This document shows positions 45,490 through 64,000 of a stretch of DNA of 64,000 bases, in pieces. This stretch comes from Blattamonas nauphoetae (lineage: Eukaryota > Preaxostyla > Oxymonadida). The number at the start of each line of letters is the position of its first letter. Positions within the stretch are counted from its first letter, which is position 1. The stretch covers positions 79,083-143,082 of the forward strand of contig JARBJD010000193.1 in assembly GCA_033064195.1 (NCBI GenBank), read 5' to 3'. The notes beneath the pieces are model-generated. The model was not told the DNA's origin. It did not search any database and saw only the letters and a list, made by a program, of their open reading frames with translations. The translations under genes and the position numbers were made by a program.

Positions 45490-45938
45490 CTACTCGATGG
45501 CCATAGTTCCCGAAATGACCACGAAATCCAAATTGAATAAAGTGTCCGGAGTGATCTTGTACTGCGCCATCCGCGTTTTTATGACATTAATCCACACGAT
45601 TATGTTGATTGGAATCAAAGCTTCAATACGAGCTGGTTCCATTTGGATCAGGCGAGAGGTGGAAAGACGGGGGGATCTGATCGACAAAGATCTGATGGAT
45701 GATTTTTTTTAGATTATTGGACTTCGAAAGCCTTCTTTATGATGTTTTTGTTGAATTTATTGCGCCTTCGAATGGAATCAGAAATGAGAAACGGATACTG
45801 GTTTCACTAGTGAAGACAAGGAGACGTATTCATGTCTGGCTCTTTTCTCCTTCAATTCCTCGATCAGTTCCAGCTCTGCTTCTTCGTTCAAATGTGTAGG
45901 TCTTCCAACTCGCTGAATTTGGCGACCCTGCTGATGTG
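45490..45938 (-). pseudogene. Transposase pseudogene, downstream part (split by element X)
   Basis: Minus-strand continuation of the frame at 49332-49515 across element X. It begins at the helix-turn-helix region with 'QRVGRPTHLNEEAELELIEE' and, after frame breaks near 45790 and 45710, reaches 'MAQYKITPDTLFNLD'. That matches the pogo/DDE_1 type sequence around the first catalytic aspartate (typically 'YNIQPEDIYNxDE'). The D is kept but the following residue is changed. It is clearly non-functional. Confidence 0.6.
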
Positions 45939-45963
45939 CTCTCAAGGGGGTACCTCAATTCTC

Positions 45964-46085
45964 AGGGTAAAAACTCGATCCCAGGGGAATATCTCAATCA
46001 CAGGGGAGAATCTCAGTCACAGGGGAGAATCTCAATCACAGGGGAAAATCTCAATCACAGGGGAAAATCTCGGGCCACAGGGGAA
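45964..46085 (+). repeat. Subterminal tandem array, left end of element X
   Basis: About six units of 19-20 bp with core CACAGGGGA-(A/G)-AATCTC. The mirrored array lies at about 49185-49300 in the right inverted repeat. Its position next to the tip suggests transposase-binding iterons (inference). Confidence 0.8.
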
Positions 46086-46130
46086 GAATGTCATATACCA
46101 TTAGGGTTGAAGAAGAACAAAATTTTGAAC

Positions 46131-46199
46131 ATGTTTGGTTTAGCGGGAAGTACGTTGGACTTTGACACGGCGGACCCGGGTTCGATTCTCGACATCGAC
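46131..46199 (+). ncRNA. tRNA-like sequence, left end of element X (tRNA-Gln UUG derived?)
   Basis: A-box-like TGGTTTAGCGGG, anticodon region TGGACTTTGA, B box GGTTCGATTC, then a run of eight or more T, a Pol III terminator. The order and the segments GACTTTGA and GACCCGGGTTCGATTC recall eukaryotic tRNA-Gln(UUG). The acceptor and anticodon stems do not pair properly, so it is unlikely to be a working tRNA. It may still be a Pol III transcription unit directed into the element. Confidence 0.6.
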
Positions 46200-46453
46200 T
46201 TTTTTTTTCCTTTTTTATTTCATTTGTTTCAGATATCACATATTTTCTCTGTTTTCAATCCCTTTTTTTCTTAAAACGGATTATCAATGCTCTCAGATGA
46301 ACAAAACGTTGAAGATGAGCGAACCATCACGATCCTGCTTTGGCTCTCAATTTCAGGCACTATTCCACAAAAAAACTTGACATTCAACATAACAATGAAA
46401 GGTCCGATGAATCTTAATCATCTTTTCTTATTTCTCCACTTGATTATCTTGTT

Positions 46454-48798
46454 TGATCCATTCTCGCGTTCGTTCAAGTATCGTCTGCAATTGAGTATGC
46501 ACATCGTTCTCGTCGCTCTCTCCAATCGCGAGAATGAATGAGGAAGTTCGAATTCTCTCATTTGATGTGGGAGCCGAAAGAGATGATTGGTAAGAGTTGG
46601 TTAGGAGTCACTTCTGGAGACTCGCCCTTCTCCTGTGTCTCTTTCTTCTTCTCCTTCACTTTTGACTTGTCGTTTGGGACTTATTGTGGTGTGGTGGGTT
46701 GGTTGTTGTCTGTGTCTGGACGTGTCACAAGCCCTCCCAATTCGGCTACTCTCTCCTCCTTCCTCCCACTTCGACTTGCCCTCCACAATCTTCGCCGACG
46801 AGAACGCCCTGGTGGCTCGCACTGACGCTGTGAGAGGGCTCCGCCAGAAAGATAGGGTGCGAGGGTCACTTCGCCAGCATCACAACACCTCCACTCGCAT
46901 TCCCTCCTCCTTTTTCTCCTTCTTGCCATCCTTCTGACTCTCTCCCACTCTCATCACGCCGAGTGATCCGATCTTCTCGAAGTCAGCGTTCGGAATTGGC
47001 TCTACAAACAACAAGTGCTCCTTCCCTTTCTTGTAGTACCCCTCTTCAACCAGCTGCGTCGGCGACTCGTCTGGCCCTTTCTCCGCAATCTCCGCTGCTC
47101 GTCGCTGCGGCCCAAAGAACAGCGTCACACACATATTCGAAAACACAACTTGCGCCATCACTCCCGCCAGCCTCTCAGCACGCCCTGCTCCTTCCGCTCG
47201 TCCTGCCTCCACTCAACTGTGAAGATACGCCAGAACACCGCGCTGGAACGCTGTGGAGGGAAGGAAGGTGTCTGCCATCCACGCAAACAGACCCCAGCCA
47301 GCCATCCTCTCCTCGTCAGTCATCGTCTCCCACACTTCCTTCTTCTTCCCCTTCTTCCCTGTGCTTGTTTCTTCTATTCCAGTTACACTCGCACTGTACT
47401 CAAAGTCGTTTCGCTTTTTCATTGTCATCGCGTACAGCTCGTGGCGCAAGGGATCTGATCCGTGTTGGTCAGTGAAGAGGAGGTGTTATCCCTACATCCC
47501 CCAATCCTTCGTTTGCCTCTTCACACTTCCCTGCCATCGCAACACCATCCTGAAAAGGTGGTGGATGATATTTTCGACTGGTTCTGTGCAGCGACAGTCG
47601 GTCTGCTCCAAGAGACACCGGTTGAGTTCGTCGCACCGAAATCGCATCAAATTTGATTGCCAGTCGCTCTTCTTCTTTCTTTATTTGGCTGCAATCTTTG
47701 CAACCCCCCATTTTCCAAACGTCGCAATGGTGAACTTTTGGAGCTCTGCTTTGAGAGTGTCTGGCAGCTTCCTGTAAGGAGACTTGACGAACGGTTCCCA
47801 AAAATGTCCTGAGATCAAGCTGTGCTATTTGGGGCCTTCCATTTTCTCCAAAATCAAGTCATCGTTGGGACGCAGTTCTCATTCTAAATTTGAATCGATT
47901 CTTGTGTAAACAAGTGAAGTACTGCGATTGAACAGTCAAAATAAGTGCTAAAACTGTGCATTGGAGTCGCAAAACATGTCTTGAATCGGATCTGGAGCGG
48001 CGTGAAAAAATGATGAACAAACTTGTGAGAGAAGAGATTCTTGTCATTTTCAAGCTTTTTCTGCAGAGGTCTTAGGAGTCGGCTACACATGAAGTCGGTC
48101 GCCTGTTCCGAAACGAAGCGAGCGTCAATACAACCATCAAAAATCAGATGATCGATGGATCCTCATCGTAACTTTTCGAATCAGCAGCTCTCTTCGCGAT
48201 TGGTGGAGGATCACTCACTCTCTCCCAATGTTCTCTCAAACCTGAAACAACACTTGGCACTCCTCTGATCTTGAGGAGTGGGAACACTCTGAAGCTGACC
48301 GACATGAGAATCATTTCAATCATCTTTGAACACACCACTCTCATTCTCAAGTCTGTCCACACAGTATCGATCAAACACATCGAATTGGTGAAAAGTGTAC
48401 ATGGTAGACAGGTCTTGTTCGTCTGACAAAAACGTTCTCCTCGCTCATATCTGTGTCATTCTTCGATTTGGACGATGGGGCGATTATGATCGACACTTCG
48501 ATATTGTTCGTGTTCTGCTTGAATGTCGACGATGAATGGAGAGACGGGATGAAATGCGCTGAGTGCGATCGCATATGATTCGTCCACACAACACCGTAAG
48601 AAGCGAACGAGATCCACATCGACACCGATTCCAACAAATCTCCTCCCGATACACTCCCCATTGGCACGCTGCTCTCTTCCACACATCTCGCATACCGAAT
48701 CGCAGACCTGAAAGCCGAATCTGACTTCGCTTCCTCAAAACACAACTTTTTGCACTTTGTCGACAAGATCATCAGCTTTTTTACCACAAGAACCGTCC
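46454..48798. other. Interior of element X: unassigned, gene-fragment-like
   Basis: Open stretches occur on both strands. The longest is a minus-strand frame from 47449 to 46880, interrupted only by a TGA at 47213-47215 ('DEERMAGWGLFAWMADTFLP' before it, 'VFSNMCVTLFFGPQRR' after it). It has the feel of a captured gene piece, but I recognise no family. Near 48230-48400 (plus) short segments vaguely resemble the surface-protein ectodomains. There is no DDE motif. Confidence 0.35.
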
Positions 48799-49051
48799 AA
48801 CAAGATAATCAAGTGGAGAAATAAGAAAAGATGATTAAGATTCATCGGACCTTTCATTGTTATGTTGAATGTCAAGTTTTTTTGTGGAATAGTGCCTGAA
48901 ATTGAGAGCCAAAGCAGGATCGTGATGGTTCGCTCATCTTCAACGTTTTGTTCATCTGAGAGCATTGATAATCCGTTTTAAGAAAAAAAGGGATTGAAAA
49001 CAGAGAAAATATGTGATATCTGAAACAAATGAAATAAAAAAGGAAAAAAAA

Positions 49052-49120
49052 GTCGATGTCGAGAATCGAACCCGGGTCCGCCGTGTCAAAGTCCAACGTA
49101 CTTCCCGCTAAACCAAACAT
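49052..49120 (-). ncRNA. tRNA-like sequence, right end of element X
   Basis: Mirror copy of the left-end tRNA-like sequence, with the same A-box, TTTG anticodon region, B box and T-run, reading inward on the minus strand. Confidence 0.6.
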
Positions 49121-49331
49121 GTTCAAAATTTTGTTCTTCTTCAACCCTAATGGTATATGACATTCTTCCCCTGTGGCCCGAGATTTTCCCCTGTGATTGA
49201 GATTTTCCCCTGTGATTGAGATTCTCCCCTGTGATTGAGATTTTCCCCTGTGATTGAGATTCTCCCCTGTGATTGAGATATTCCCCTAGGATCGAGTTTT
49301 TCCCCTAGAAATTGAGACACCCCTCTCAAGG

Positions 49332-49515
49332 CTCGCCACAAGACATCATATTGGATGCCTGTGACTCTTGAAATGATCGCCACGGAGGCACCTGTATTAT
49401 TTTTCAACTTGATCGCTTTGTCCATCATTGTCTTTTCTTCACGGTATTCCGCTGTTGCCAGGAGTTTGTGCAGCTCAGACTCACTCCAGTCCGCCGGACG
49501 GTGAGGGAATAACAT
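49332..49515 (-). pseudogene. Transposase pseudogene, N-terminal part (split by element X)
   Basis: The ATG at 49515 starts a frame with 'DWSESELHKLLATAEYREEK' and a helix-turn-helix-like 'GASVAIISRVTGIQYDVLWR', cut at the target duplication of element X. Reading across the excised X keeps frame into 'GRPTHLNEEAELELI' at 45938 and below. This is the usual N-terminal DNA-binding region of pogo-like transposases. Confidence 0.6.
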
Positions 49516-50085
49516 TTATGATGGGAGGATCAAGGTACAAGTATGTCCATACGCTCAATTGAGTCTTTTCTAGGATCAATGAATCTTATGATCAGTTAAA
49601 TCTCAATGAGACTTCTCATTTCTCACACTTTCAAGAAAAAAGGACTCATGGAACACTGGAGCTCATTGAAATGGATTACTCGTGGGTTGACCATTGACTT
49701 TGTGGATTTCCTCACACTTTGTGCATTAATTGGTCTTTTTCTCTGAGATCAGAGAGGACCTTGTTCGTGAGATTGTGGAAAATGTGATAGTGTCCAAAAA
49801 TACCTCCTTCAAGAGAACGACACGCGTAGGGACTTCATCGTGGTTGTGATTCTCATCGAACATCAAAACAAAGACTGAGAAGAGAGTTTTGAGAACGCCA
49901 AATGGTTCTTTCAAATACAGTGGAGGGATTAAAACTGCAAGCCTGACTAAAGAGGAAGTTTTGAAAAGTAACACCATTTCACAGTATTGTTCCATCTCAT
50001 CTTTTCCAAAAATAAACGGAGAGTTACAATAAGGATGACATGGCTGGAAAAAACAATCCGATGGGATGATCTTCCCCTCTCTCCC
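49516..50085. other. Spacer between transposase relic and Tc1-like gene
   Basis: AT-rich. An 89-codon minus-strand frame (49726-49995) is not recognised. I could not find the Tc1 terminal repeats here. Confidence 0.35.
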
Positions 50086-51009
50086 TCACCACCGGGTCCA
50101 GCCGCCTTTCGCTCTCACAACGTGGATCATTCGCTCACTCAAACTACAGATCGAATTCCTGACACCATCAAGCAGCTGATATCGCCAGATCCTGCAGATG
50201 TGAGATTTCAACTCATCAATGGTCCTAATTTCTTCCTTGTTCAACTTGGCTTTCAGGATTCTCCACACATTCTCGATCGGGTTTAGATCTGGGCTTTGAG
50301 GTGGCCAGTCGAGCGTTTCAACTTCAGAAAATTCAAGCCATTCCGTCACCACTTGAGCTGTGTGGATCGGACTATTGTCTTGCATGAAGACAGCAGGTTT
50401 GTCACAACACTGATTCATATTGTCTAGGAGGTGCTTTTTCAGGATCTGAAGATATTGATCCTTCGATAAATTCCCAGAGACAAAAACAACGCTCCCCATA
50501 CCTCTCCAACCGATTGATCCCCACACATTAACCTTTGCGCTGTGTTTGACGGTGTGTAAAACACAGTTTCTGTTAAATTTTTCGTCTCCTCTCCTCCATT
50601 CATAGATTTTTCCTCGCGGTTCCATCAGGTGGATCGTACACTCATCCGTCCAGAGAACTCGCTTCCACTCATCAAGTCCCCAGGCTATGTGAGCTGAGGA
50701 GAATCGCATCCGTTTGTCGATATTGGTCTCTCTCAACAGTGGCTTCCGAGCAGCAATCCGTTGATTTAACCCAGCTTCCCTGGCTCGGCACGAAATCGTC
50801 TTCTCGCAGATTGAAATTTTGAGTTTGTCCTTAATTTCCAGTTTTATCTCCCTCCTAGTCGCAAACCGTTTGGATTCGATTGTCTTGACGATGGCTTCAT
50901 CCTCTTGATCTGTCGTCTTCCTTCTTCTTCCCCGTGCCGCTTTGAGTGCCCGTCTATGTCGGAACCTGTAAATCATCGAGTCAACAGTTCCTTTTGGGAG
51001 ATGCAACAT
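50086..51009 (-). CDS. Tc1/mariner-type transposase (DD34E)
   Basis: 307 residues from the first ATG (51009). The same frame is open upstream to about 51100 and encodes the start of the first helix-turn-helix ('EIEILWKLGKSADRIAKM') but has no ATG, so the true start is lost or in another exon. The catalytic triad is complete: D in 'RVLWTDE', D in 'VFMQDNSPIHTAQ', and E in 'SPDLNPIENVW', with 34 residues between the last two, the Tc1 spacing. It would cut and paste its element at TA sites. It is the only near-intact transposase in the window and might mobilise TA-flanked MITEs such as 13791-14638, but I found no matching terminal repeats around it. Confidence 0.88.
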   Translation of the reverse strand: MLHLPKGTVDSMIYRFRHRRALKAARGRRRKTTDQEDEAIVKTIESKRFATRREIKLEIKDKLKISICEKTISCRAREAGLNQRIAARKPLLRETNIDKRMRFSSAHIAWGLDEWKRVLWTDECTIHLMEPRGKIYEWRRGDEKFNRNCVLHTVKHSAKVNVWGSIGWRGMGSVVFVSGNLSKDQYLQILKKHLLDNMNQCCDKPAVFMQDNSPIHTAQVVTEWLEFSEVETLDWPPQSPDLNPIENVWRILKAKLNKEEIRTIDELKSHICRIWRYQLLDGVRNSICSLSERMIHVVRAKGGWTRW

Positions 51010-51656
51010 CTTCGCGATCCTATCGGCAGATTTCCCAAGTTTCCACAGAATTTCGATCTCGTGTTTCTTCTTCTCCCCTATCCTCCGTCTTCGCTTCGTC
51101 CTCTAATTACGCCAACTGAAAGCAAACAGAAAAAGCAAACGGTCAAACGTGCAACCATCGGAGATAAAGGTCTACGAAGCCTGATCTCTGACCTCGTATT
51201 TCTCATTTCACACTTTTCTCGGGTAATCGCCTCATGGTATCATTGATTTCACTTTTCTCTGTTTTATCTCTGAAATTGAAAGTGAACTTCGAATCGAGCC
51301 AATTTAAAGTGTGTTGGTGAACGAGATCCTATCCATCGCCCCATCATATCTTTTCAACTCTCGCAGACCAACAAGGAAGTGTTGGCGGTGGGCGTCTAAA
51401 ATAACAACAACTATCCCTCCAAGGAAGTCGATAAACACAGTGTGAATTCATATCTAGTCTCATTTCGTGCTTGCAGTTTTAATCCCTTGACTGTAGTTTC
51501 AACTGACTCTGAACCAGGGCTGAAAATAAGGTCATTTTCGGCGTATTTACGCCAAAATATTGCATTTTTTGTTACACCAGTGTAAACACTGGTGTATCGT
51601 TCTCGACACCCACAGTTTATTCGTTTCAGATTTGTCACAATTTAGAAAGCTGTTTT
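51010..51656. other. Spacer with two adjacent palindromes
   Basis: Contains a perfect hairpin TACACCAGTG-TAAA-CACTGGTGTA at 51573-51596, and GGCGTATTTACGCC at 51540-51553 just before it. Otherwise unassigned, apart from the upstream open end of the Tc1 frame. Confidence 0.5.
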
Positions 51657-51995
51657 ATGACAGAATTAAAACAGAAACCCTCTATTCAGAAACAAATTTC
51701 ACTTGACGACTTTGGATCTCCTATTGTTGCTCAGAAGCGGTCTCAATTGACAGGTGTAATCCTCAAACCCAAAAAGACGAAACGAGAAGTGTCAGATTTT
51801 GCGTCGGTGATGACACACATAGCGAATTCAACATTCGACGTTGGGGGTAAGAAACAACCTACATACATCGCTCACAAGTATGGCGTTACATGTGTTCCAT
51901 GTGAAGCTGGGAAGCTCATCTCTCAGAAACAATTCACAAAAGATTGGGATCCTAATACTGCCGAACCAACGATATCTTCCATTCGTAGTGTATAG
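51657..51995 (+). CDS. Small lysine-rich hypothetical protein
   Basis: 112 codons from an ATG, with a basic N-terminal part (LKPKKTKREVSDFASVMTHI) and a Cys pair 'GVTCVPCEAGKLISQKQF'. No family is recognised. The open frame is stop-free and not antisense to anything, but there is no second copy to confirm coding. It could be a fragment of a mobile-element protein, given its surroundings. Confidence 0.35.
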   Translation: MTELKQKPSIQKQISLDDFGSPIVAQKRSQLTGVILKPKKTKREVSDFASVMTHIANSTFDVGGKKQPTYIAHKYGVTCVPCEAGKLISQKQFTKDWDPNTAEPTISSIRSV

Positions 51996-52012
51996 AACGA
52001 TTTGGGAACCAC

Positions 52013-52245
52013 ATGGGTGAGAATTTTTGATGTCATAAAAAAGTTCGAATCCACATCATCGAAACTCGTCTCATCACACAGGAGAGACAGATATTGTTCA
52101 TACTTGGATATTCGTTGGAGACACCATTCAACGTCTTTATCGTGAAACCAGTCCAGATACTGGCTCGATGGACAAGTCTCGTTTTTTGATGCGAGTCCTC
52201 GAACTTTTTTATGATGTCAAAAATCCCGACCCACATTGAAAAAGT
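52013..52245. repeat. Small inverted-repeat element, about 230 bp
   Basis: The ends share ATTTTTGA..TCATAAAAAAGTTCGA in opposite orientation (about 52018-52048 and 52200-52230), with a gap of about 150 bp. It looks like a degenerate MITE. No duplication is identified. Confidence 0.5.
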
Positions 52246-52441
52246 GGTCGAAAGCACCCTCATTTGTGATTTATTTCACAGTGACTTCGTCAAAAACAGT
52301 GATTTTCTTCATCGATTTGACACAAAATATTGGAGCAAATTTTTGCACTTTTTCGAAAAATTTGATCACTTTGTCGATTTTCTTCAAAAATCAACCCGAA
52401 CAGATTTTGAAACTCATTCTAAAATCTCAATGACGATGTGA

Positions 52442-53311
52442 CTCGACCCCTGGGCGGGTTCGAGACCTCGCAGAGGCGAGACTCATTGATCAAAACAAAC
52501 CGGATCAAAATCGGATGAGTCGTGGAGATATGTGTCGAACATTGGTCAAAAATCAAAAAATTTTGGAAAATATTTTTTCAAAAATTGACCATATCTCGAC
52601 AACCAGCAGAGATCCAGACCTGAAACCAATTGCAATCGATAGAGGACGAAAAAATACATCTAGGGTAAATTTTGCAAAAACCATTGTTTGAGGAAGCACG
52701 AGATTCTGGTGATTTACAATGGTCCCAGGGTTGCGATCCCTGTGATGGAGCATTCACGCGCTCCCCATCGGCCCGTTTCTGGCTTACTGGGCCGGAATTT
52801 TCAAGTTTTTTTAATGGTGCTAGCTTCCTCCTCGTTTTTCGCTGAATCCCTCGAAATTTCATAGTGCTGCAGTCACTACTACGTCTCTCAGGATCCAACT
52901 AATCTACTATGACCACGGTCACGGTTATAGTGAGAATTTCGCCAAAAGTACGAATTATGGGGGTATTTTCAAAAATGTTTTCAAATCGTCTTCAAATTTC
53001 ACACAAAGGATGAAGAAATTATGAGAAAACAGAAAAAATAATTTGGAAAAAAAATTTTCGTCAGGAGCCAAGATCCCATTTTTGACCCTGTATTTGACTG
53101 CAGTAAAAATCGACATTTTTCAATTTCGAAAATATTTTCATCCAAGGTCATATTCGATGCGCTCTTTCGATTCCCGCAAGTTCTATTGAAATCGGATCAG
53201 TAGTTGTTGAGAAAAAATGGTTTTATTTTTTATTTTTTCATTTTTTTATTTTGTACTAAATGAATGCAACAGTCTCGCCTCAGCGAGGCTTCGAACCCGA
53301 CAGGGGTCGAG
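52442..53311. mobile_element. 870-bp element with 41-42-bp inverted ends containing a B-box-like motif
   Basis: Left end 52442-52483 and right end 53271-53311 are inverted copies: CTCGACCCCTG..CGGGTTCGA..CCTCGC.GAGGCGAGACT. The motif GGGTTCGA in both ends resembles the Pol III B box, echoing elements X and Y. The interior is AT-rich and without a gene. A target duplication is not evident, so the outer border could be a few bases off. Confidence 0.65.
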
Positions 53312-53469
53312 AAATCTATAACCAAAGACGTCGAACGAATGCAAAGCAAGCGTTGATCGAGTCGATGAAAAAGGAGAATTGTGAACTTGTTTCTGATTAC
53401 ATTCACGGTTCAACACCGGTGACGTATGTTCATGAAGGCGTTGAATGGAGGATAAAACCGATGCATTAG
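53312..53469 (+). other. Short open tail, unrecognised
   Basis: About 52 codons ('TNAKQALIESMKKENCELVS', then VTYVHEGVEWRIKP) ending at 53469, running out of the right end of the 870-bp element. It reads like a genuine protein end but has no identifiable start of its own. Possibly a gene fragment interrupted by the element. Confidence 0.3.
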
Positions 53470-53503
53470 TACCATGACATAGTCATACTAGAAATGCGAA
53501 GCA

Positions 53504-53617
53504 CTAATACTCCGGCAATAGATCAACTAGGAATTCATAATATTCTTTGATTATTTTTCCATTGACAGTTTCTGAAGTGTTCATTTCAACTGATTCACCT
53601 GAACTGTCTTTGAACCA
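53504..53617 (-). pseudogene. C-terminal piece of a coding block interrupted by element Y
   Basis: Minus-strand frame ending in TAG at 53504-53506, with acidic and aromatic residues near the end. Across the excised element Y (one copy of TTGAACCA kept) it is in frame with an open segment just right of 61715, so Y landed inside a protein-coding sequence. The protein family is unknown. Confidence 0.5.
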
Positions 53618-53636
53618 GGGTCATCTCAATTTAAAG

Positions 53637-53732
53637 TTGGTTTTCTCGAGTGCAGTTGGTTTTCTGAACTGCAGTTGGTTTTCTGAACGACCGTTGGAAA
53701 TCTGAACGACCGTTGGAAATCTGCAAAAAAAG
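53637..53732 (+). repeat. Subterminal tandem array, left end of element Y
   Basis: About five units of 19-20 bp built on GTTGG(T/A)(T/A)(T/A)TCTGAAC. The mirrored array, one unit longer, is at about 61579-61690. Confidence 0.8.
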
Positions 53733-53788
53733 TTGGTTTTTTTAAACCTTATCGGTGTGGATGTTTGATCAAAAAAAAATTGTACAAA

Positions 53789-53853
53789 TGGACGAGTTGG
53801 TAGATACAAAGACTTCCACTGTTGGGTCCCAGGTTCGAATCCCGGGATCTCCA
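53789..53853 (+). ncRNA. tRNA-like sequence, left end of element Y
   Basis: A-box-like TGGACGAGTTGG with D-loop AGTTGGTAGA, loop CTTCCAC (anticodon TCC if functional), T arm CCAGG-TTCGAAT-CCCGG (one mismatch), B box GGTTCGAATCC, then CCA and a T-run. The acceptor stem pairs poorly at its inner half and the anticodon stem has mismatches. So it is tRNA-derived but probably not a working tRNA. It is transcribed inward. Confidence 0.6.
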
Positions 53854-54040
53854 ACTTTTTTCTTAACAGGATTTTTCTGACGTGATCATTCATATTTTTG
53901 TGAAATTATTGCAGTATTCATGATCGGATGAGTAATGTTCGACAATTGGATTGAATTGGCCTTTTTTTGAATCGGATCATCCCACTTTCTCTTTAACTCT
54001 CCTCTCTCTGGTGTATACCGCCCTTTCAACAGGATATATA

Positions 54041-54763
54041 TCCTGAAAGCGACGAGTTTCATTGTGTGTCTGGAAAGATTGGACGGTCAGAAAGGCCTCT
54101 ATCTCTGATTGTGTTTTAACAATCTCATCCTCTCATCGCTCAGATACGATTGAGGGACACGGTGAAGGGCTTTCCCATCCTTTCGAATGCTTGGGCAAGC
54201 CATGACACATGCTGAATCTCACTGTTTGATGACCCCTCCTGAGCGATTGGATCATGATGAAAAATGGAACCGTGTATTGAACAGGAAGAATGGACACTCA
54301 AAGAAGAGTTAAAAACACTCGACATCGACTCATCTTCACTCAGGCCTAGATCACTCTCGAGAAATGTGGGTCCCTTGTCATTTTCCAGCGAAATCCATGC
54401 CTACTAACTGTGTCCACATTGGATTGTCAATCAGATCCTCAACAATAATCAATAGCGAAGTCTCATCAATCAATTCAGGTTTCTGAATCAGATAATCTCT
54501 CCTCTGTGCATGCAAATATGGCATACCTTTCATCCACACAACAAATCAAAAGATGATGAAAAACTCGTTGTATTCTGATGCAAATGCGACACTGTATTAA
54601 CTAACATAACCAAACGACTCGAAATCCTCCATTCCTCGATATCTTTCCTGAATACGGTCGAGATCACACGACACATAACTATCCTCTTCCGATCGAACGG
54701 AATGGATTCATCTATGTCCCTGTCAAGCCGACAAACTTTGAACTCAATTTAAATCCCTTCCCC
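54041..54763. other. Element Y interior without recognised gene
   Basis: Sequence between the left inverted repeat and the Q-rich frame. No motif or repeat was recognised. Confidence 0.35.
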
Positions 54764-56136
54764 ATGACGACCTTATGGATGGTGTCGAGGGGGACGATTC
54801 TCAATCCCCATTTGCATCGTCAAGAACGTCACCCCGACAGCATCGTCGACGTCTTCCCCAACAGCCAGGTGATGACATTGAAAAGACTCCCTCAACACAA
54901 ATGGGAATGTCTGGGCGTCCTCGACCTCGCCACATGCACTATTGGCAGCATCCTTCGATGAGGGACCAGAATTACAACTCGGACGAGTTCTATCCCATCA
55001 TCGTGGAATCTCTCGCCCATCAATACCCTCCTCGTCAGCAGCAACCGACATACAATCAACAAGTGCTTGTTTTTGAAGATGTCCAAGCAGATGTGCCCAG
55101 TCAGGGAGTTCCCGATGACCATCAGATCTCTGATGCACTCACAACAGGAGCAAGCGGAAGATACTCGACTCCCACCTCTCTACTCAGACGATGTTATGAC
55201 GTATCCCCTCCATTCTCATGTTAAAGCCCTTGAGAATCGAAACAAACACGAACACCCTCCAGACAAGGTCAACGATGTCCAGAACCCGCTTGTCGATTCT
55301 GGACGAGTTGTTGTTGCCTTCCCAGATCAACAAAAGTACTTCTCTCCCTTCCTTTCTCAGAACGAGCACAGCACTGTCCGTTTACAGGCAAAGCGGTATG
55401 CCAAACAGAAGCCCGACTCCCTCTCAAACAGGGAGGGTTTTGTGAACCAACAGCAACAGCACATCAACCCACAGTTTCCACAACAATCGTCTGCTGCCAT
55501 TGTCACGTAGAATTCCCAGTCATATCGTCGTCCACTGCAACAATCAGAGAATCAGCCATTCGATGAAGAATATGCCACATCTCGCGCCAACCAGCTAACC
55601 GAACGAGATTTTTCTGGTTCTTTCGCACTGCCTCCCACATACACCAATCAAAAACAGTCAGAAACAACACATCAATCCGAGCCAATCTCGCACCAAAGAT
55701 ACCCACAGGAAGACATCCACCACTTCACCCAACCCTCCTTCTACAAACCCCAATCTTCCACTTCCCTACTTTCTTCCCATGTCCTCCAACTCCCATCAAG
55801 TTGCCCTCAACGCACACATTGTGTGGTTCCCGCATTACGAGACTGACCCTCGCATTCTGATGGAGTAGACAGGATCAGCCGATGCTGTCCACAACTGGCG
55901 TTTCTATTTGTCGATTCCGACATATCCGATGAATGTGGCACCGACACAAATTCAGTCGAAGTCGCCAACACGCGGGAAGAAGGATCAGACGGCGAGAAGG
56001 CTGGCGAACGAGCTGAGAAGGTTGCTGCTGATTTCCAATCCCTCGTCGACTACTACGATGATCTTGACATCATCAATCAACTCTGGAAGAGCAGCGACAT
56101 CCTGTCGAACAAGATGGTGTGAGTGTCAGGAGGCGA
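54764..56136 (+). pseudogene. Gln/Pro-rich protein pseudogene captured in element Y
   Basis: An open stretch of low-complexity Q/P/S/H-rich coding. It runs in one frame from 54775 (ATG, acidic start) to about 55180, then shifts frame and continues through 55067-55510. There is a TAG at 55508-55510, and the same frame is open beyond it for about 110 more codons. Another frame change near 56000 precedes 'VAADFQSLVDYYDDLDII'. There is no known domain. The multiple lesions fit a captured, unselected gene copy. Confidence 0.45.
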
Positions 56137-57560
56137 TGGCTGGGCTTACGATTTCGACGTCCACTGCATCGATCATTTCCTCCACTTTGGCGAGGACGTC
56201 CGCGCCGTGATAAGGCTCAGATGTTCACAGGAAGGCAAAATCTCGCTTTCTTTGAACAAGAAAAGACTGTGCTCGTTCACGACTTGCACTGTTTCACCAA
56301 TACTCTCCCACATATCAACAGCAACACTCTCCATCTCTTCATACACGCTTGCCTCGCTCAGTCCAACTGCACATTCTTCTCTCTTCGCCGTCACGTCCAT
56401 AGGCAATGTAGCTTTCACAACGACGATCATCAACGATCTGACGTCAACAACCACCCTTTTCTCGATCACAAAGTCAACTGGAACAGTGACGTTCTCTTCC
56501 TCTCCCTTCACCGATTGTGGGTCAACGAGCTCATCTCTCATCGATGCCACACTAACTGAATCCGTGTCTCTTTCAGTCGTTTATGTCAATGTGTTTCAAG
56601 ATCTAAAACAGCCACCACCGCGGCGGGTCAGTTGAGCATCACCGTCACTGTCAACTCTGACGCGACTTGCCGCACAATCACACTGTCTGTGGACTCTGCC
56701 TTCACTGAAACAAGCGAGACACTAACATTGACCAAAATGGATTCATGGCCATGTCAAGCTGCTCGTTCACCTCTCTCGTCTCGATTGGGTCGGGCTAAGC
56801 CCTGAGTGGAACAATCGGCACTGATAAGGTAGAAACCATTGCCAGTTCGATCTTCGCGCCGTGTTCAGCTGCAAATGGAGGAGCTCTCTCGGTCAGTCAC
56901 AGGCGGACAACTCTCCATCACCTCGACAATATTTTCTGACAGTTCAGCTACCGCGAATGGAGCGGCGCTGTTCCTGGACCCCAGCGGACTCACAGCCTCA
57001 TATCTGACCTCTTTGCTGCCACGAACGTCAATGTGTGTGGATGATCTGGCATTCTCCAAACTGATCGTCGTTCTTCCATCGACCCTGTCATCCGCGTCTG
57101 TCGGATCTCTGATCTCCCCCACTGCCTCTCTGACCATCTTCCCATCATCAGAGAATGCTCGTTCTCCACGTGATCCTCCACACATGACGGCAGAGGGATC
57201 TCGATTTCATGTCCATCCAAATTCCCACCTTCAAGTCTTGTCATCGACTCAAAATTCGATAAAATCTGTCAGTGTTCGAGCGGACGATCTGGAGAATGGA
57301 TTTTCATCTCCGCCTACGACTACTCATCACTCCTCATCTCACACTCGATGTCAAGGAAGTCTGTCAAAATGTCAGCTTCAGGCCCATCTTTCGATGTGAC
57401 AGTCACCGCCTGCACATACACATCCTGCTCAACAACCTCCGAGACAACTTTTGGCGTACTCTCCATCGCGCACTCTTTCAGACACAGTTCATCCTCACTG
57501 GAACAGCAACTATCACAACATGCACGTCACAGTCAATGTGATTAGCCGACGTACTCCACC
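56137..57560 (+). pseudogene. Surface-protein (beta-helix type) fragments in element Y
   Basis: Plus-strand segments in several frames with the same style as surface genes 1 and 2: 'TITVSFSSSPFTDCGS'-like Ser/Thr stretches at about 56380-56560, and 'LSVTGGQLSITSTIFSDSSA' followed by NGAALFLD at about 56885-56975. No membrane segment or kinase tail remains. It is a truncated, frame-broken relative carried as cargo. Confidence 0.5.
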
Positions 57561-58290
57561 CACGCCTGTGTCTAAGCTGATGCCTCAATTGTTTTTGGTG
57601 AATGAGGATGCCGCTTCTTCGATTGCTGTTCGTTTTCTTCTCGCCGTCATTCTCCTCGTTCGCCAGTATCTGAACACGCAACGAATCACTCATGTGGTGA
57701 TCTGTGGAACTGGAACGACATTCTTGGCATCGCCAGCGAAACATGTGAGCCGTGTGTGCAGCTTTCTTGACAAAGCACTTGATGGTGACGGGGTGATCCT
57801 GGTTCATTCACCTCAAGGGCACAACCGCGTGATGCTGATTGAGTCGATTTTTCTGATTCAGCGCTACAGTTGGTGAGTGGAGCTTGCGATGGAAGTGACG
57901 TCGCTGAGCCGGCGGACTCGGATGAAGGGATCGTTCGTTTCGGGGTTGAGGAAGCATGCTGGAGTGATTAATCGTCTTGTGCAAACGCCTCGTCTTTTGC
58001 AGGAATCGTTCACTCTGCACAACACGTCGTTCAACCAGGCAGTGCGACTGGCTCAGTCTGCGCCGAGTGTGCGTACTGCTCCGAAAGTGAAGTTCCCCTG
58101 CTCACTGGCGCCGTGTGTCGTGAAACCGAAATCGAGCTCGTCGACGAAACGACCGCAGACGAGTGAACCGACAAGCGGGACGGAGCCAGCGGGATCGATT
58201 CTGCAGTCCGGCGATGCGAGGAGACACCGAATGCCGCTGAAGTTGGCGAAAACGAGCCCGCTTCTTTCGCGTGTCGCCCGCCGCTGACCA
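57561..58290 (+). pseudogene. Dual-specificity-phosphatase-like fragment with Cys-to-Ser active site
   Basis: The frame ending at 57876 reads 'RITHVVICG', then a helix, then 'VILVHSPQGHNR' and a following helix ending RYSW. This matches the cysteine-phosphatase loop HCxxGxxR, but the catalytic Cys is Ser. A TGA (57874-57876) follows, and the same frame continues with 'VELAMEVTSLSRR' and 'FVSGLRKHAG', the expected C-terminal helices. It is therefore both catalytically dead (STYX-like) and interrupted. It is cargo of element Y. Confidence 0.5.
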
Positions 58291-59823
58291 GCGCTTGCCG
58301 AACCTACACTCCACTCGGATTGGACGTGCCGCAGATTAATGTTCAGAATGTGCCCGCACAATTGTTGGGGCATGCGACGATTCTGGAATTGATGGAAGCT
58401 GGAAACCGAAACTGTCAGCTCTTCGGACAATCGAACAAAACGCCCTCCGACGGCAAGGATCGGCCGGGCACCACTCCCGAACGGCATGCCCGGCCGCCCA
58501 CACTCTCACAAGTCTCGTCCGCAGCGTCACTGGATTCGCTGGCCTCCTCGTCGCGTGTTGATTCGCCGACGTGCGCGACGAACGAAGAAAGCGAGTCGGT
58601 GATTGAACTGAACCCCACCCCGCTCTCATTGTACACAGACCAGCACTTCCTGCCGCTCTTCTCGCCCACACCGCACACCCCTCCGTCGGCAGCGGACAGC
58701 AACACAGACCGCTCTCGCCCCTCGTCGCCCACACTCACAAACCCCTTTCGCCTCCGAAGGACCACGCGAACTTGAACGAGCCACCGAGTCCTGTTCTTGT
58801 GACGATGCACCGGTTCTCGCGCGGGAATGGGATGCGCTCGCCGCGACACTCGAAGCCAGCCCCAAAGTTGGTCTCGCTCCCCACAACCCTCCCACACCCT
58901 CCCCCCTCTTCCCCATAACACGAAAGTGTGCATTCTGCGAGTGTGAAGAAGATAACACCGACAACATCCGTCGCGAAGGGAAGGCTGTGGCTGCGAGGCA
59001 GAAGCGCCATTTCTGATTGTTTCTCCGATCGGATTGGGTGGATCTGCCGTCGTGGTCCGTTCCCTTTCTTTTGGTTCGTGTCCCATCCTCTTTCTTCCTC
59101 CGCGTTCTGTTCTGCTTCGAAGCTCGTCATCATTTGGCTGTCCTGTTCTGCGCTGAATCTCGCTGTAGCTTTCTGTTCTGGCAGTGTCTTTCTCTGTGCG
59201 TCCTGCCCTTTCTTGCCTGTACATGAGACGATAGAGATTCGGGGAGGGATCTGAGGCTATTATCGTTTTACCCATTCTTTACCAGTTTCTGAGCCAATTT
59301 TCGCGAATATTTTGTTTTCTTGATTGCTTGTGACATGCACTGAATGAATTGAAGACGTGATATTGTCTTGTTTCCGAAATATTGGTTGGTGAAGTGTTCA
59401 AAACAAACTGGATTTGTGCAGCACAGGAGTTGGGGATGACTTACTATCTGGTTCCAGCAAACAATGAAATCCTTATCATTTGAATCGAGTGCGTTTCAAC
59501 CGTCCAACCAATCTGGGGATGGCAGCAGAGAATGACGAGAATTGGATGGCTTCAGCATTCTTGATCTCCGCTTCAAACTTCAGCTGCGTCGCAAAATATG
59601 TTCACGGAAGAACAAATTGTTGTTCCAGATCGAGTTGTTCCTGTCTGCACGGATCTTTCTACAAGTTCACATTAACAACCATCTGCTGTTCGATGAGACC
59701 TCGTTCGGCGTTCTTTGCAAGAAATGGGTTTCTTTTGGTTTTGTCTCATCTGTTGAGAGAAAATAGTGGGGGCAGTCAGGGACTAAGTTTTCTTCAAATC
59801 GAGTGCGATTCAGTGTCGATTCG
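58291..59823. other. Element Y interior, probable decayed coding sequence
   Basis: The 58320-58775 plus-strand frame (Ser/Pro/Thr-rich, no domain) may be the tail of the phosphatase-like gene. The long opposite frame 58415-59275 looks like its shadow. 59280-59823 holds nothing recognised. Local GC is higher than in the flanks at 57.9-58.9 kb. Confidence 0.3.
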
Positions 59824-60850
59824 TTATTGTGCCAGTGGAGACCCCAAAATGAGCATTTGAGTTGTCAGTGTATTCATACCCAACCATGTCATCACATCGA
59901 GTGATCCGAAATAAATTCGCTGTGGTTTCGTGTGCAAAAAGGAGAATGTTGTTTCCAACTCCAAAGAGTCATCAAGACCTTCCTCTCGCAAGCTGGCCAT
60001 GATGTCCTTGCTTCTCCTTTGCACTTCGGGTTTTGCGTCCTTCCACATCAACAGAGTCCATCTCAGGTACGACAGGCCTTGATCGATCATTTCAACGGTG
60101 GTGAAGTGAATGAAGCAATTTATGATGGCGACAGAGAGGGGGGGCAGCATGAAAGAGTGAATTTCTTCGTAGAAAAGAGCGCATCGCATTGGCTCCAGAA
60201 GCAGAGTCATAATGCTGGATGTCGGATTGTGGATGTCGAATATGGAGTAGTGACGACAGATGAATCTCAGAAAACCCTCAAGTGGAACAAGGAGATCCGA
60301 AAAGATGATGTGGAAGAACTGAAGTTGTTCTGGAATCACAGAAAAGTCCCTAAAATAGATGGAGTCGCCGAGTTGAGAGAGACAGCGAACAATGATTCTC
60401 ACGAGAAGAATTATGTGTTGAGGCTTCAGATGATTCTCTTGCTCGCAGAATGAAAGCGGAGGAGTCAGAAGAATTCGGCTTCCACAAGTTTGAGTCGGTC
60501 ACGAGTGTCGGCCATTTCTAGTGTTGTATCCAGAAATGAAAGTGCTGAAAATGATATTGTTTCATTGCTACAGGATAAAAGGGAGACCATTGCTTCTGCG
60601 AACAGTCGACAGGTTCGATTCAGTGATGGGACGAGGTCAAACAGAATCTCGCCGCAAGTGAACAGTTTCTGGGCCCAGGTGCAAGTTTGTCCAGCAATCG
60701 GCAGGCCTTTCGGGTTTCAGACTTTCCAAAGACGGCTCCTTCTTTCACAAGTGTCACAAGTGAGAGAAAGACTGGAGATGCATCAGAGATGTTGGTGATT
60801 CGAGACAGGTTGACTGTGAAGAATGGTTGCGGCAAATCTCTCGTGTCCGG
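59824..60850 (-). pseudogene. Helical (ARM-like?) protein pseudogene in element Y, second family
   Basis: Minus-strand pieces in different frames: about 60835-60690 ('SPVFLSLVTLVKEGAVFGKS'), about 60690-60465 (Leu/Ser-rich helical sequence ending at a TGA) and 60402-59824. The last, of 192 codons, contains 'LVPLEGFLRFICRHYSIFDI' and, near its end, YFGSLDVMTWLGMNTL. The layout resembles a large helical hypothetical family I associate with oxymonads (from memory). It is not the same as copies A-E. Broken by at least two frame changes and one stop. Confidence 0.45.
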
Positions 60851-61276
60851 TTGGGAAAGATGCGATTAAAAGAGATTCTGTGTGGGAAGGGAGCTGGGTC
60901 TGTACGAGAAGAGGGAGTGGAAAAGATCGGATTCATTCCCTTCGGTCTCTTCTTGATATGCCCTGCTGGAAGACAAAGTGAGGTGCACACGTGGTTAGCC
61001 AGTTGCCTTGTCTCCGCTTTGTTTGCTGGTGTTGCGTTCTCTCGATGCCAGTCGTGGATCTGACGGTTAACGTATGGTTGAGAAGGAAGGGAGGCGGTGT
61101 GAGATTGCAGTTGGCTGAAATGGAGGAATATCCTTGGGACTCTGTTGGTTTTGGGACAGGGATTACTGAAATGGCACCTGTTTCGGTGAAAGATAATCGC
61201 GTCGATTTGCACAACTCCATTCTTGCTCTGTTTCATTGTATCATCTCATGATTCATTTTGTGATTGTTGGTACAGA
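60851..61276. other. Element Y interior near right end, unassigned
   Basis: Open frames occur on both strands without motifs. Possibly the 5' part of the minus-strand helical pseudogene. Confidence 0.3.
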
Positions 61277-61459
61277 ATATATCCTGTTGAAAGGGCGGTA
61301 TACACCAGAGAGAGGAGAGTTCAAGAGAAAGTGGGATGATCCGATTCAAAAAGGCCAATTCAATCCAATTGTCGAACATTACTCATCCGATCATGAATAC
61401 TGCAATAATTTCACAAAAATATGAATGATCACGTCAGAAAAATCCTGTTAAGAAAAAGT

Positions 61460-61524
61460 TGGAGATCCCGGGATTCGAACCTGGGACCCAACAGTGGAAG
61501 TCTTTGTATCTACCAACTCGTCCA
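61460..61524 (-). ncRNA. tRNA-like sequence, right end of element Y
   Basis: Mirror copy of 53789-53853 with identical A box, B box and TCC loop, reading inward on the minus strand and followed by a short T-run. Confidence 0.6.
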
Positions 61525-61715
61525 TTTGTACAATTTTTTGATCAAACATCCACACCGATAAGGTTTAAAAACCAACTTTTTGCAGATTTCCAACGGTCGT
61601 TCAGATTTCCAACGGTCGTTCAGAAAACCAACGGTCGTTCAGAAAACCAACTGCAGTTCAGAAAACCAACTGCACTCGAGAAAACCAACTTCAAATTGAG
61701 GGCAGCCTTGAACCA

Positions 61716-64000
61716 GATCTTCACAATTGATTGCCGAGTTGTTAATTCCCACTTCTTTCGTTTCGAAATTTGTTCGTTACTGAAACAATGTATGAATCAT
61801 TCCATGCATCTGTCTGAATCCAGTCAGCATGGATTGTATAATTCTGAGGAATATCTTTGGAGATGACTGTTGACGAATCACCTATTTCTTCCTTCACATG
61901 TATGAGTTTGCAGTCGAGAAAGTGGATGTATTTTTGATTTCTGGAATTGGTAAAATCTGGAGGAGTTGAGCAGTGTGAGAATTCTGAATTGAGAAATAAC
62001 GTTTGACCATTGTTTTCTACAAAAATAAAATATTAGAATCAATAACCTCTCTTCACTTCTTCGAATGCTTCTTGGAGTCGACGATCAATGACATATCGCA
62101 CTCGTGGTTGTCCATTCTCAATCCAGAACCACCAGTATGTAGCTTGATGTAAGGCCAAAATTGGTGGTGGAGGACCTTCTGGAGTTGATGAAATATGGAT
62201 CGAGTTCGCCTTGTTTTATTGGTGTTCCTCTGTAGACAATATTCACTGATTCTGCTGTCGAGATTCCTTCTTCACCCACCGGCGATTTCTACGATCTGTT
62301 GGAACCATGAATGTAAATGAAGTTGCATCCGTAACTGCTCTTGTTCTCTTGGACTCATGTCCCAAATAGTTATTGTTGCGTGACATACAGATTGAATTCT
62401 CAAACTCTTCAGTTGCAGAACATCCAATGAAATCACCATTCACCATCATCATCTGATAGAACTCTGGCGAGTGTTGACATCGGAGAAATTAGGAAAGTTG
62501 GATCAAGCATTTCGAATTGACCAACGTGGATTTCTGAAGACTGTACACTCGTTAGGACGTTCTGGGAATAAGCACATGAGATTCATGAGATTGTTGAGTT
62601 TGATACTAATGTTTGATCTCACTCCATCGCTGTTGCTTTTGATTGGAATGATTGTGTGTCAATTCTTTCTGCTTTCATGACATACAGAGTCTTCAGAATA
62701 TGTGTTGAAGAGATTGTTTTGTTGGATCTGTGATTTGGTATCCGTAGCAAACTGATGTGACTTTATCACTGATGAAGAAAGACAGCGGATGTCATTGATC
62801 TGGTTTGACATATGGAGTGGCAGAGTAGAATCGAAGGGATTGTATTGCATCATCGAAGGGTGGATTGCCAATTTGTGGAAATTCCTGTGTCAGATTAGAG
62901 TACTCTCCTTCAGACATGAGACTCATTCTTCCCTCAGATGCAGTGAGAAGCCTCGTTGTGCTCTGGATGAAGCTTGAACGTTTTCAAGTGATTTCGAATG
63001 ACAGTTGAAACTCGAATTGGACAGTACAAGTGAATCAGTTGTCAAAGTGAAATCTGAACCGGAGATTGCCAAAGATTGAATTCGGATACTGATCAAATGT
63101 ACTCAGCGGCAGAAAGTTCACCAATGGAATAACCAGTGGAATTGTCGCAGTGTATGGAGTTTGGATCCATCGAGTGCTGGAACATAGTAGAATCCACACA
63201 TCTGATCCATTCTCTGAACACATTCCCACGATATGGCAATGCTTCATATTGTTTTCTCTTCTTGTGACTTGAATGTGAGATACATGGAATGATTCGTGCA
63301 CATGATTATTCTGAAGTGTGTTGTCAATGATGTTTCCTTGACTATCGACTAGTCGCATGTCCGAATTGCATCTGATGACGACTTATAGCCAAAGTGTTTC
63401 CTCGCCTGCACGTTGTGCTAATCGGATTCTGCAGTACATGAAACAGCAACAGTTAGATCTATTCGTAAATGACTCTTAGAAAACTCGGTCATCATGACCG
63501 TCGCGCACAATGGAACTTCAATCTCATCTCCAATTTCTACATGGCTTTGGAGGTTTGTTGGATGAATTTCCAGAATTGAATACGGTGAGGTTCTGGAATC
63601 CTGTTTTAGCATGTACGATTGCACTGGATTGCTCAATTAATGTCGATGTTGGTTTGGATTGATTTGATCGATACTTCTCATTTATAAAAATAAAAATTCA
63701 ATATCAATGAATTCTTTTACTGTTTGTCTCTACATGATTCCTAAATCTTTTTGTAACGCTTTCAATGTGTGATAAGGATAGTACTCAACTTTTGGTTCAC
63801 CATTGCTGAATCGTAGGACCCACCACGTAGTTGCAGTCGTTGCAGAATCGGTGCTGGAGGATGAGTAAATGTTGTCATGTCACCACCACTTTCACTTGGA
63901 TTGTAGACATTGTAAATGTGTCGAGATTCCCTTGATAGTGGATATGATCTCAAAGTGACTGGAACATTCTGATCAAGAGACTTATGGAATCATTACAGTT
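61716..64000 (-). pseudogene. Unrecognised minus-strand coding block with two related units, interrupted by element Y
   Basis: Several open minus-strand segments follow one another: 63953-63730, 63636-63418, 63358-63035, 62871-62659, 62452-62243, about 62200-62039, and about 62020-61742. They are rich in beta-branched and aromatic residues. Segments ending at 63730 and at 62039 are related: both have a Pro-rich stretch ending PIL, then a TWW or YWW, then an N-G-(E/Q)-P-(K/R)-V core. So there is an internal duplication. Frame changes separate many segments. The block continues beyond the window and, across element Y, to 53504. The look is of beta-rich structural proteins; a virus- or Maverick-type origin is only a speculation. 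There is no polymerase, ATPase or integrase in view. Confidence 0.35.

Follow-up and report, generated by a model that had tools for sequence, protein, structure and literature searches.

The transposons closest to those described here belong to the MULE/MuDR superfamily of Mutator-like elements (MULEs), whose defining features are set out in the available portions of PMC6446971 and PMC5225508. Long terminal inverted repeats (TIRs) of MULEs are linked to foldback RNA and small interfering RNA (siRNA) in the accessible text of PMC6446971. The Foldback-type MULEs Tm1 of root-knot nematodes and Muta1 of Aedes aegypti have composite ends, and Tm1 elements carry a histone hairpin motif between their repeats, perhaps another RNA-end-forming signal held as cargo (PMC3169594, PMC5225508, both in part). 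Here we analyse two elements, X and Y, in a 64,000-nucleotide stretch of DNA (the window) from the oxymonad Blattamonas nauphoetae (assembly GCA_033064195.1, contig JARBJD010000193.1, positions 79,083 to 143,082), along with their relatives in the same genome. Each of their TIRs contains, behind an array of tandem iterons, a tRNA-derived unit of RNA polymerase III (Pol III) type that reads inward and ends in a T-run, and this layout recurs at nearly every related end that was read. Composite tandem-repeat ends have been seen in other transposons, but the role of their inner parts has, to our knowledge, been left unexplained.

X and Y both show the 8–11 bp target site duplications (TSDs) and long TIRs by which Mutator-like elements are recognised. 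Likeness to the MULE/MuDR superfamily extends to a transposase with a MULE domain enclosed by X-family tips, TSDs of 8–9 bp and subfamily-specific interiors, whereas the inward tRNA-derived unit with its terminator, found here in nearly every TIR read, sets these elements apart; a word search of the main texts of PMC6446971, PMC2725143, PMC5225508 and PMC3169594 returned neither "tRNA" nor "Pol III". Tm1 and Muta1, so far as the portions available describe them, share subterminal tandem repeats of variable number and 8–9 bp TSDs with our elements, and Tm1 also has asymmetric short terminal motifs at its two ends. In contrast, the same portions mention no tRNA-derived unit, and they give repeats of 12 bp (Muta1) and 13–15 bp (Tm1) rather than the 19–20 bp found here. 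Short interspersed elements (SINEs) derived from tRNA likewise carry an A box and a B box of tRNA origin, and a B2 SINE can act as a boundary (PMC8136502, in part); unlike in SINEs, the units here sit in DNA-transposon TIRs as two inverted copies, each terminated by a T-run immediately behind the tRNA portion. In yeast, an A box and a B box together act as a barrier or insulator, and tRNA genes (tDNAs) are nucleosome-free and need TFIIIC and TFIIIB (PMC7990762, in part). The A-box/B-box modules in the TIRs resemble those of such barriers, but tDNA insulators and TFIIIC sites are host genes whereas the present modules are transposon-borne and their function is putative. The initial annotation, made without database searches (the sequence-only reading), knew of no described DNA transposon with such ends, and our literature searches, on tRNA or Pol III units within TIRs, on Foldback ends, on Mutator-like elements of Trichomonas or oxymonads and on tDNA boundaries in relation to transposable elements, found none in the titles and the beginnings of abstracts of the open-licence papers listed.

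The layout of X and Y is widespread in the genome. In the assembly searched (88,311,006 bases, 837 contigs; C-numbers denote contigs and L-numbers loci), the tip pattern of X (family A) has 162 exact matches and that of Y has 111, while a third tip, GGGTATTTCTATTG (family B), has 25 and a fourth, GGGTTCGCTCTAAAT (family C), has three with one mismatch allowed; the reversed control of each pattern gave 0. X and Y fall in two of these four tip families. Ends were read from TIR matches, autonomous elements and listed tips (100 of the 162 family-A and 100 of the 111 Y matches), the ends read being a portion of those listed. By reading, 145 of 149 ends from all four tip families show the order tip, ~19–20-bp iterons, inward tRNA-derived unit and T-run. 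A regular-expression scanner, written after the sequences had been seen, placed the unit inward at 133/149 ends and outward at 0/149, and scored 9/1490 dinucleotide-shuffled ends. The unit is present in 96 of 99 family-A ends (78 loci plus X), in 21 of 22 family-B ends by reading (16 by one pattern, 12 by the scanner), in all three family-C ends by reading and by one pattern (one by the scanner), and in all 25 family-Y ends by one pattern (24 by the scanner). These counts leave out L031, which has a tip with a shortened G run and does contain the unit, and include as unit-bearing the family-B ends L165, L166, L169, L170 and L180, which fail the pattern and show a damaged unit on reading. The reverse comparison, by eye on contigs up to C378, placed 35 of 38 listed copies of the family-A unit pattern at an exact tip and at the expected distance, and two of the three left over (C46:360592 and C297:68886) lie inside TIR matches. 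Iteron copy number varies between ends, as in Foldback-type TIRs of tandem repeats. The sequence-only reading had allowed that the shared plan might be a coincidence if confined to two elements; the counts by reading and by scanner over four tip families rule this out.

At both ends of X and Y, as first described, the tRNA-like unit follows ~19–20-bp iterons, reads inward and ends in a T-run. Its proposed derivation from tRNA is borne out by similarity to 24 host tRNA genes (z = 7.7 for X and 8.1 for Y, 0/300 shuffles each), though not by Rfam, which gave no match in 45700–62000 even at E ≤ 1. ARAGORN found no tRNA in the window, and with neither program matching X or Y the units are degenerate and not tRNA genes. 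Across both sets of units examined, similarity to host tRNA ranges from z = 2.9 to 11.6. In the first set 21 of 27 units were unmatched by 300 dinucleotide shuffles each, the weakest being L032, L035, L054, L056, L089 and L120 (1–4/300), and in the second, from families B, Y and C, 13 of 13 were unmatched by 200 plain shuffles each. Scores are 36–57 for the units and 19–28 for thirteen TIR segments of the same length taken downstream of them. The description of the X unit as Gln-like came from its anticodon-loop triplet only, the best whole-unit match among the 24 host genes (a set from which Glu, Ala and Ser(GCT) are absent) being tRNA-Asp for both X and Y. Other units are closest to Lys (L038), Val (L178) and Thr/Arg (L167); whole-unit matches differ, and assigning isoacceptor identity from the triplet led nowhere.

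The cloverleaf of these units is broken. Mean pairing over 25 units, from a search biased toward pairing, is 3.72/5 in the T-stem, 2.60/5 in the anticodon stem and 4.92/7 in the acceptor stem, against 5.00, 4.92 and 6.96 in the 24 host tRNA genes. In the 17 loci scanned, the best score to the tRNA family is 22.9 bits, under the gathering value of 29. Among the loci read, ARAGORN reported the units of L050 and L053 as tRNA-Val(CAC), plus an intron-bearing SeC (selenocysteine tRNA) in L013. Taken together, the Rfam and ARAGORN results, the low tRNA scores and the broken stems rule out functional tRNA genes. SINEs, too, have a degenerate cloverleaf. A tRNA-derived SINE, retrotransposed and with a 3' tail and no TIR, was nevertheless rejected because the units sit in the TIRs of elements with DNA-transposon TSDs.

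Sequence is kept at the promoter boxes and the terminator. A strict canonical pattern (A-like box, GWTCRANNC and T4 or longer) fits 106 of 149 ends and a looser one fits 133, the X and Y ends included. In family-A units anchored at the B box, the T-run starts 21–25 nt from that box; for 21 of 24 host tRNA genes the first T4 beyond position 20 was located at 21–28 nt and for three there was no value, and the T-run search itself starts 20 nt after the anchor. We compared 18 family-A representatives, after removing three near-duplicates and omitting L089, L090, L092 and L112, whose units are visible and do not meet the anchor. Mean pairwise difference is.176 in the leader,.257 in the A box,.229 in the B box and.211 in the T-run, and rises to.465 and.355 across the greater part of the interval that separates the boxes and to.481 in the downstream TIR. 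In the elements of C21, C151 and C288 the two ends are identical in the leader plus A box (28/28) and in the B box (11/11) and agree at 14–15 of 27 positions between them. Boxes kept and stems lost are the pattern expected of a promoter kept as DNA, whereas a tRNA acting at the RNA level would keep its stems. A short Pol III transcript of ~75–90 nt might instead be the product itself, competing with silencing or tRNA processing, or priming or guiding. We consider this very improbable: a full transcription-unit layout with terminator at most ends read (106/149 strictly) and unit sequences that vary under a constant layout would suit such a transcript, but the stem means and the best score of 22.9 bits in 17 loci give no sign of a kept cloverleaf, the one structure assessed.

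We favour the reading, to which we give a probability of roughly 0.55, that each TIR retains, as DNA, a tRNA-derived Pol III promoter or TFIIIC site that probably serves to form a border or to block transcription. The sequence-only reading had judged the constant layout probably functional and listed several possible roles. The conserved layout and its Pol III-type units stand as firm anatomy; for function, which we infer from the sequences, the Pol III/TFIIIC border-type roles appear favoured over the rest of that list, and the broken stems speak against an RNA guide or primer that depends on tRNA structure. The end would be a composite of a short terminal motif, tandem iterons that are probably transposase binding sites, and a Pol III type-2 module closed by the T-run. 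This module would be kept for a DNA function, recruiting TFIIIC and TFIIIB and perhaps Pol III. Once bound, it could keep the end nucleosome-free and accessible and could stop transcription or chromatin from crossing a TIR that, being long, would otherwise give foldback double-stranded RNA. A border module is proposed on the strength of tDNA barrier activity together with the foldback RNA and siRNA linked to long MULE TIRs. More tentatively, and at somewhat less than even odds, the lineage may have built the host Pol III system into its ends, with a tRNA-derived TFIIIC/TFIIIB site in every TIR, repeatedly re-derived or swapped between tRNA kinds, that would act as a transposon-borne boundary, holding the ends open and stopping read-through and foldback RNA. 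If the border reading is true, a DNA transposon can recruit Pol III machinery, and the escape of long-TIR elements from foldback silencing becomes testable. The strictly matching ends would also supply 106 natural TFIIIC-site candidates from a eukaryotic group that has received little study.

Judged by sequence, the group to which X and Y belong is Mutator-like and Foldback-type, Y's link being circumstantial. The MULE domain PF10551 is matched 100 times genome-wide (E ≤ 0.001). It lies between both tips of family-A elements in C21, C38, C151, C212 and C288, between family-B tips in C454, C650, C68 and C204, and between family-C tips in C85, and it is this presence of a MULE transposase within three tip families that places the group. 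Full open reading frames (ORFs) of 638 and 633 amino acids in L043 and L045 match PF10551 at 82.5 and 79.2 bits. An autonomous partner, anticipated by the sequence-only reading, therefore exists for the X tip family; for Y there is a candidate only. Perfect TSDs of 8–9 bp flank 19 of 21 family-A elements, and for the other two (L031, L035) a single end was found. A protein search with the L043 transposase returned nothing at E ≤ 1e-3, and in Pfam two other ORFs of autonomous elements gave one case without a match and one below the cut-off. A 12.3-kb family-C element with a MULE transposase (C85:141025–153372) represents a low-copy autonomous family with three tip matches genome-wide.

Unit-bearing transposases cluster in the MULE tree. 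The rebuilt tree has 27 rows, nine of them unit-bearing, leaves out L162, includes L037 and L042 and carries a long-branch warning; its unit-bearing rows require two changes, or one with L146 counted (support 64/80), and 0/500 label shuffles were as low. An earlier tree with L162 and without L037 and L042 required four label changes. L162 itself probably represents a foreign MULE inserted close to a tip. L146 lies in C287, where the Y-type end 10.5 kb away has a unit, and Y may share the lineage of the unit-bearing MULEs. That these transposases form one tree group if L146 is counted (one change, 64/80) also agrees with an inherited relic, in which a single capture placed a tRNA gene in the TIR of an ancestral MULE and it was carried along from then on, the ends being kept alike by gene conversion and the gene having no present function. 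The broken cloverleaf, the damage to the B box in several lineages and a TTTGA(A/T) leader at most ends of all four families (A 97/99, B 20/22, C 3/3, Y 22/25; 142/149 in total) point the same way. Nonetheless we regard a relic as unlikely, given that the A and B boxes diverge less than most of the sequence between and downstream of them, that in three autonomous elements the sequence separating the boxes differs from one end to the other while the boxes do not, and that the unit is kept at 145/149 ends and is never outward.

Several observations weigh against a border kept by selection on Pol III signals. The strict pattern fails at 43 of 149 ends, the B box is damaged in whole lineages (the L032–35 group, L045, L046, L054, L056 and the L165 group), and the L045 type is autonomous despite this damage. 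No unit was found in three family-A ends (L049, L114, L118) and one family-B end (L176). For the C212 element, which ends in L049, the transposase match lies ~2.3 kb from the tip, farther than in most elements (1.05–1.11 kb in C21, C38, C288, C454, C650, C119, C836 and C85; 1.6 kb in C151; 4.2 kb in C68), which suggests an insertion. In the autonomous C38 element (L045) the two ends share an identical unit, and a difference between ends is therefore not universal. The leader shared across families points to one origin, and differences in best host match may then have arisen by drift or partial conversion rather than by fresh captures. When the 1.6 kb upstream of the domain was read at 16 more MULE loci, the unit turned up at one (L130); MULE transposition in itself may therefore not require the module, and the idea that every MULE of this genome carries the unit is likewise unsupported. 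The 16 loci include near-copies (L127/L128; L131/L132/L135) and a repeat of L042 (L138). No unit stands beside the transposase in L126 (C287) or L037 (C68), where it lies at the matching distant end (L185, L174); since the unit can sit at the far end, this 16-locus test is weak and the other loci are not shown to be unit-less.

Conservation also reaches beyond the boxes. The spacer preceding the unit (.277) and the 7 bases that lead up to the B box (.213) show about the same level of conservation as the A box, and the trailer that follows the B box is more diverged (.332). Conservation could also stem from binding of the transposase, homogenisation of the TIRs or shared ancestry, and an iteron-side spacer as conserved as the A box makes binding of another protein possible. 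MULE transposases bind TIR DNA, and the unit might be conserved through binding of the transposase or of a host factor other than TFIIIC, with its tRNA likeness a matter of origin only. Both the position of the unit region next to the iterons and the conservation of leader and spacer accord with this. Yet iterons and tips vary across families while the constant parts are the A box, the B box and a T-run at tRNA-gene distance, and we rate such binding as distinctly improbable, below the relic.

X has the limits first assigned to it and a perfect 9-bp TSD on each side. For Y the right end and the perfect 9-bp TSD also stood, and the left start was moved from 53618 to 53619, making the element one base shorter. 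TIR lengths are ~0.51 kb for X and ~0.42 kb for Y, with tandem units within each TIR, in line with the original description. The longest stop-to-stop ORF of X has 213 amino acids and no stop-to-stop frame of Y exceeds 287. Pfam gave no match in one scanned X frame or in three Y frames of 202–286 amino acids. With neither a long frame nor a Pfam match, judged on unspliced stop-to-stop frames, X and Y are apparently non-autonomous. X belongs to the MULEs through its tip family, a transposase lying between tips of that same family; compared with its relatives, interiors differ by subfamily. Y is probably Mutator-like, to go by the circumstantial evidence of TSD length, tips, layout and a candidate transposase. 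In each of C287, C546 and C41 a MULE match has a Y-type tip 9–10.5 kb away, the relative orientation being the same, and no second Y-type tip was found in the 1.4–1.45 kb read on the far side of the match (L181–L183). Coordinates of all parts are given in Table 1.

Table 1. Positions of elements X and Y and of their parts in the window.
Feature	Position	Strand	Remarks
Element X	45948..49322	.	tip family A (GGGTACC... / GGGTGTC...); Mutator-like, apparently non-autonomous
TSD left of X, 9 bp, CTCTCAAGG	45939..45947	.	
TSD right of X, 9 bp, CTCTCAAGG	49323..49331	.	
Iteron array, X left end, ~19-bp units, AGGGGARAATCTCAATCAC-like	45964..46083	+	approximate limits
tRNA-derived unit, X left end	46127..46199	+	A box 46136–46146, B box 46179–46189
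T-run, Pol III-type terminator, X left end	46200..46208	+	by sequence; spacing like that of host tRNA genes
tRNA-derived unit, X right end, inward	49052..49124	-	
T-run, X right end	49044..49051	-	
Iteron array, X right end	49163..49306	-	approximate limits
Element Y	53619..61707	.	tips GGYCATCTCAATTT... / GGCTGCC(C)TCAATTT...; Mutator-like by tip, 9-bp TSD and layout
TSD left of Y, 9 bp, TTGAACCAG	53610..53618	.	
TSD right of Y, 9 bp, TTGAACCAG	61708..61716	.	
Iteron array, Y left end, GTTGGTTTTCTGAACTGCA-like	53634..53727	+	approximate limits
tRNA-derived unit, Y left end	53777..53855	+	A box 53789–53800, B box 53832–53842
T-run, Y left end	53856..53861	+	
tRNA-derived unit, Y right end, inward	61458..61536	-	
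Iteron array, Y right end	61575..61693	-	approximate limits

The window has a GC content of 46.0%. A scan of it for A box, B box and T-run gave five matches, four of which are the units of X and Y; the fifth, at 8659, looks like chance. Between X and Y, and part of neither, is an open Tc1/mariner-type transposase ORF (50086–51102, minus strand; Pfam DDE_3 and HTH_Tnp_Tc3_2). Inverted segments (GAGTCTCGCCT.../...TTCGA-containing) surround ~0.85 kb at 52438–53310 and perhaps mark another small inverted-repeat element. Y has ~700 bp of interior in common with L036, an element with X-type ends, at 89% identity and in opposite orientation, so cargo is shared between tip families.

Nesting was seen at other loci. 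A family-A tip with iterons lies ~300 bp inside the family-B end of L180, placing one unit-bearing family within another. A 473-amino-acid DDE_1 transposase frame (47.6 bits; L028, 1629–3047, minus strand) inside a family-A element is probably a nested insertion, because this 4.45-kb element is ~1.6 kb longer than its near relatives. A fragment of small-subunit ribosomal RNA (137 bits; L039, 1–242, minus strand) lies near, and outside, the end of a family-B element.

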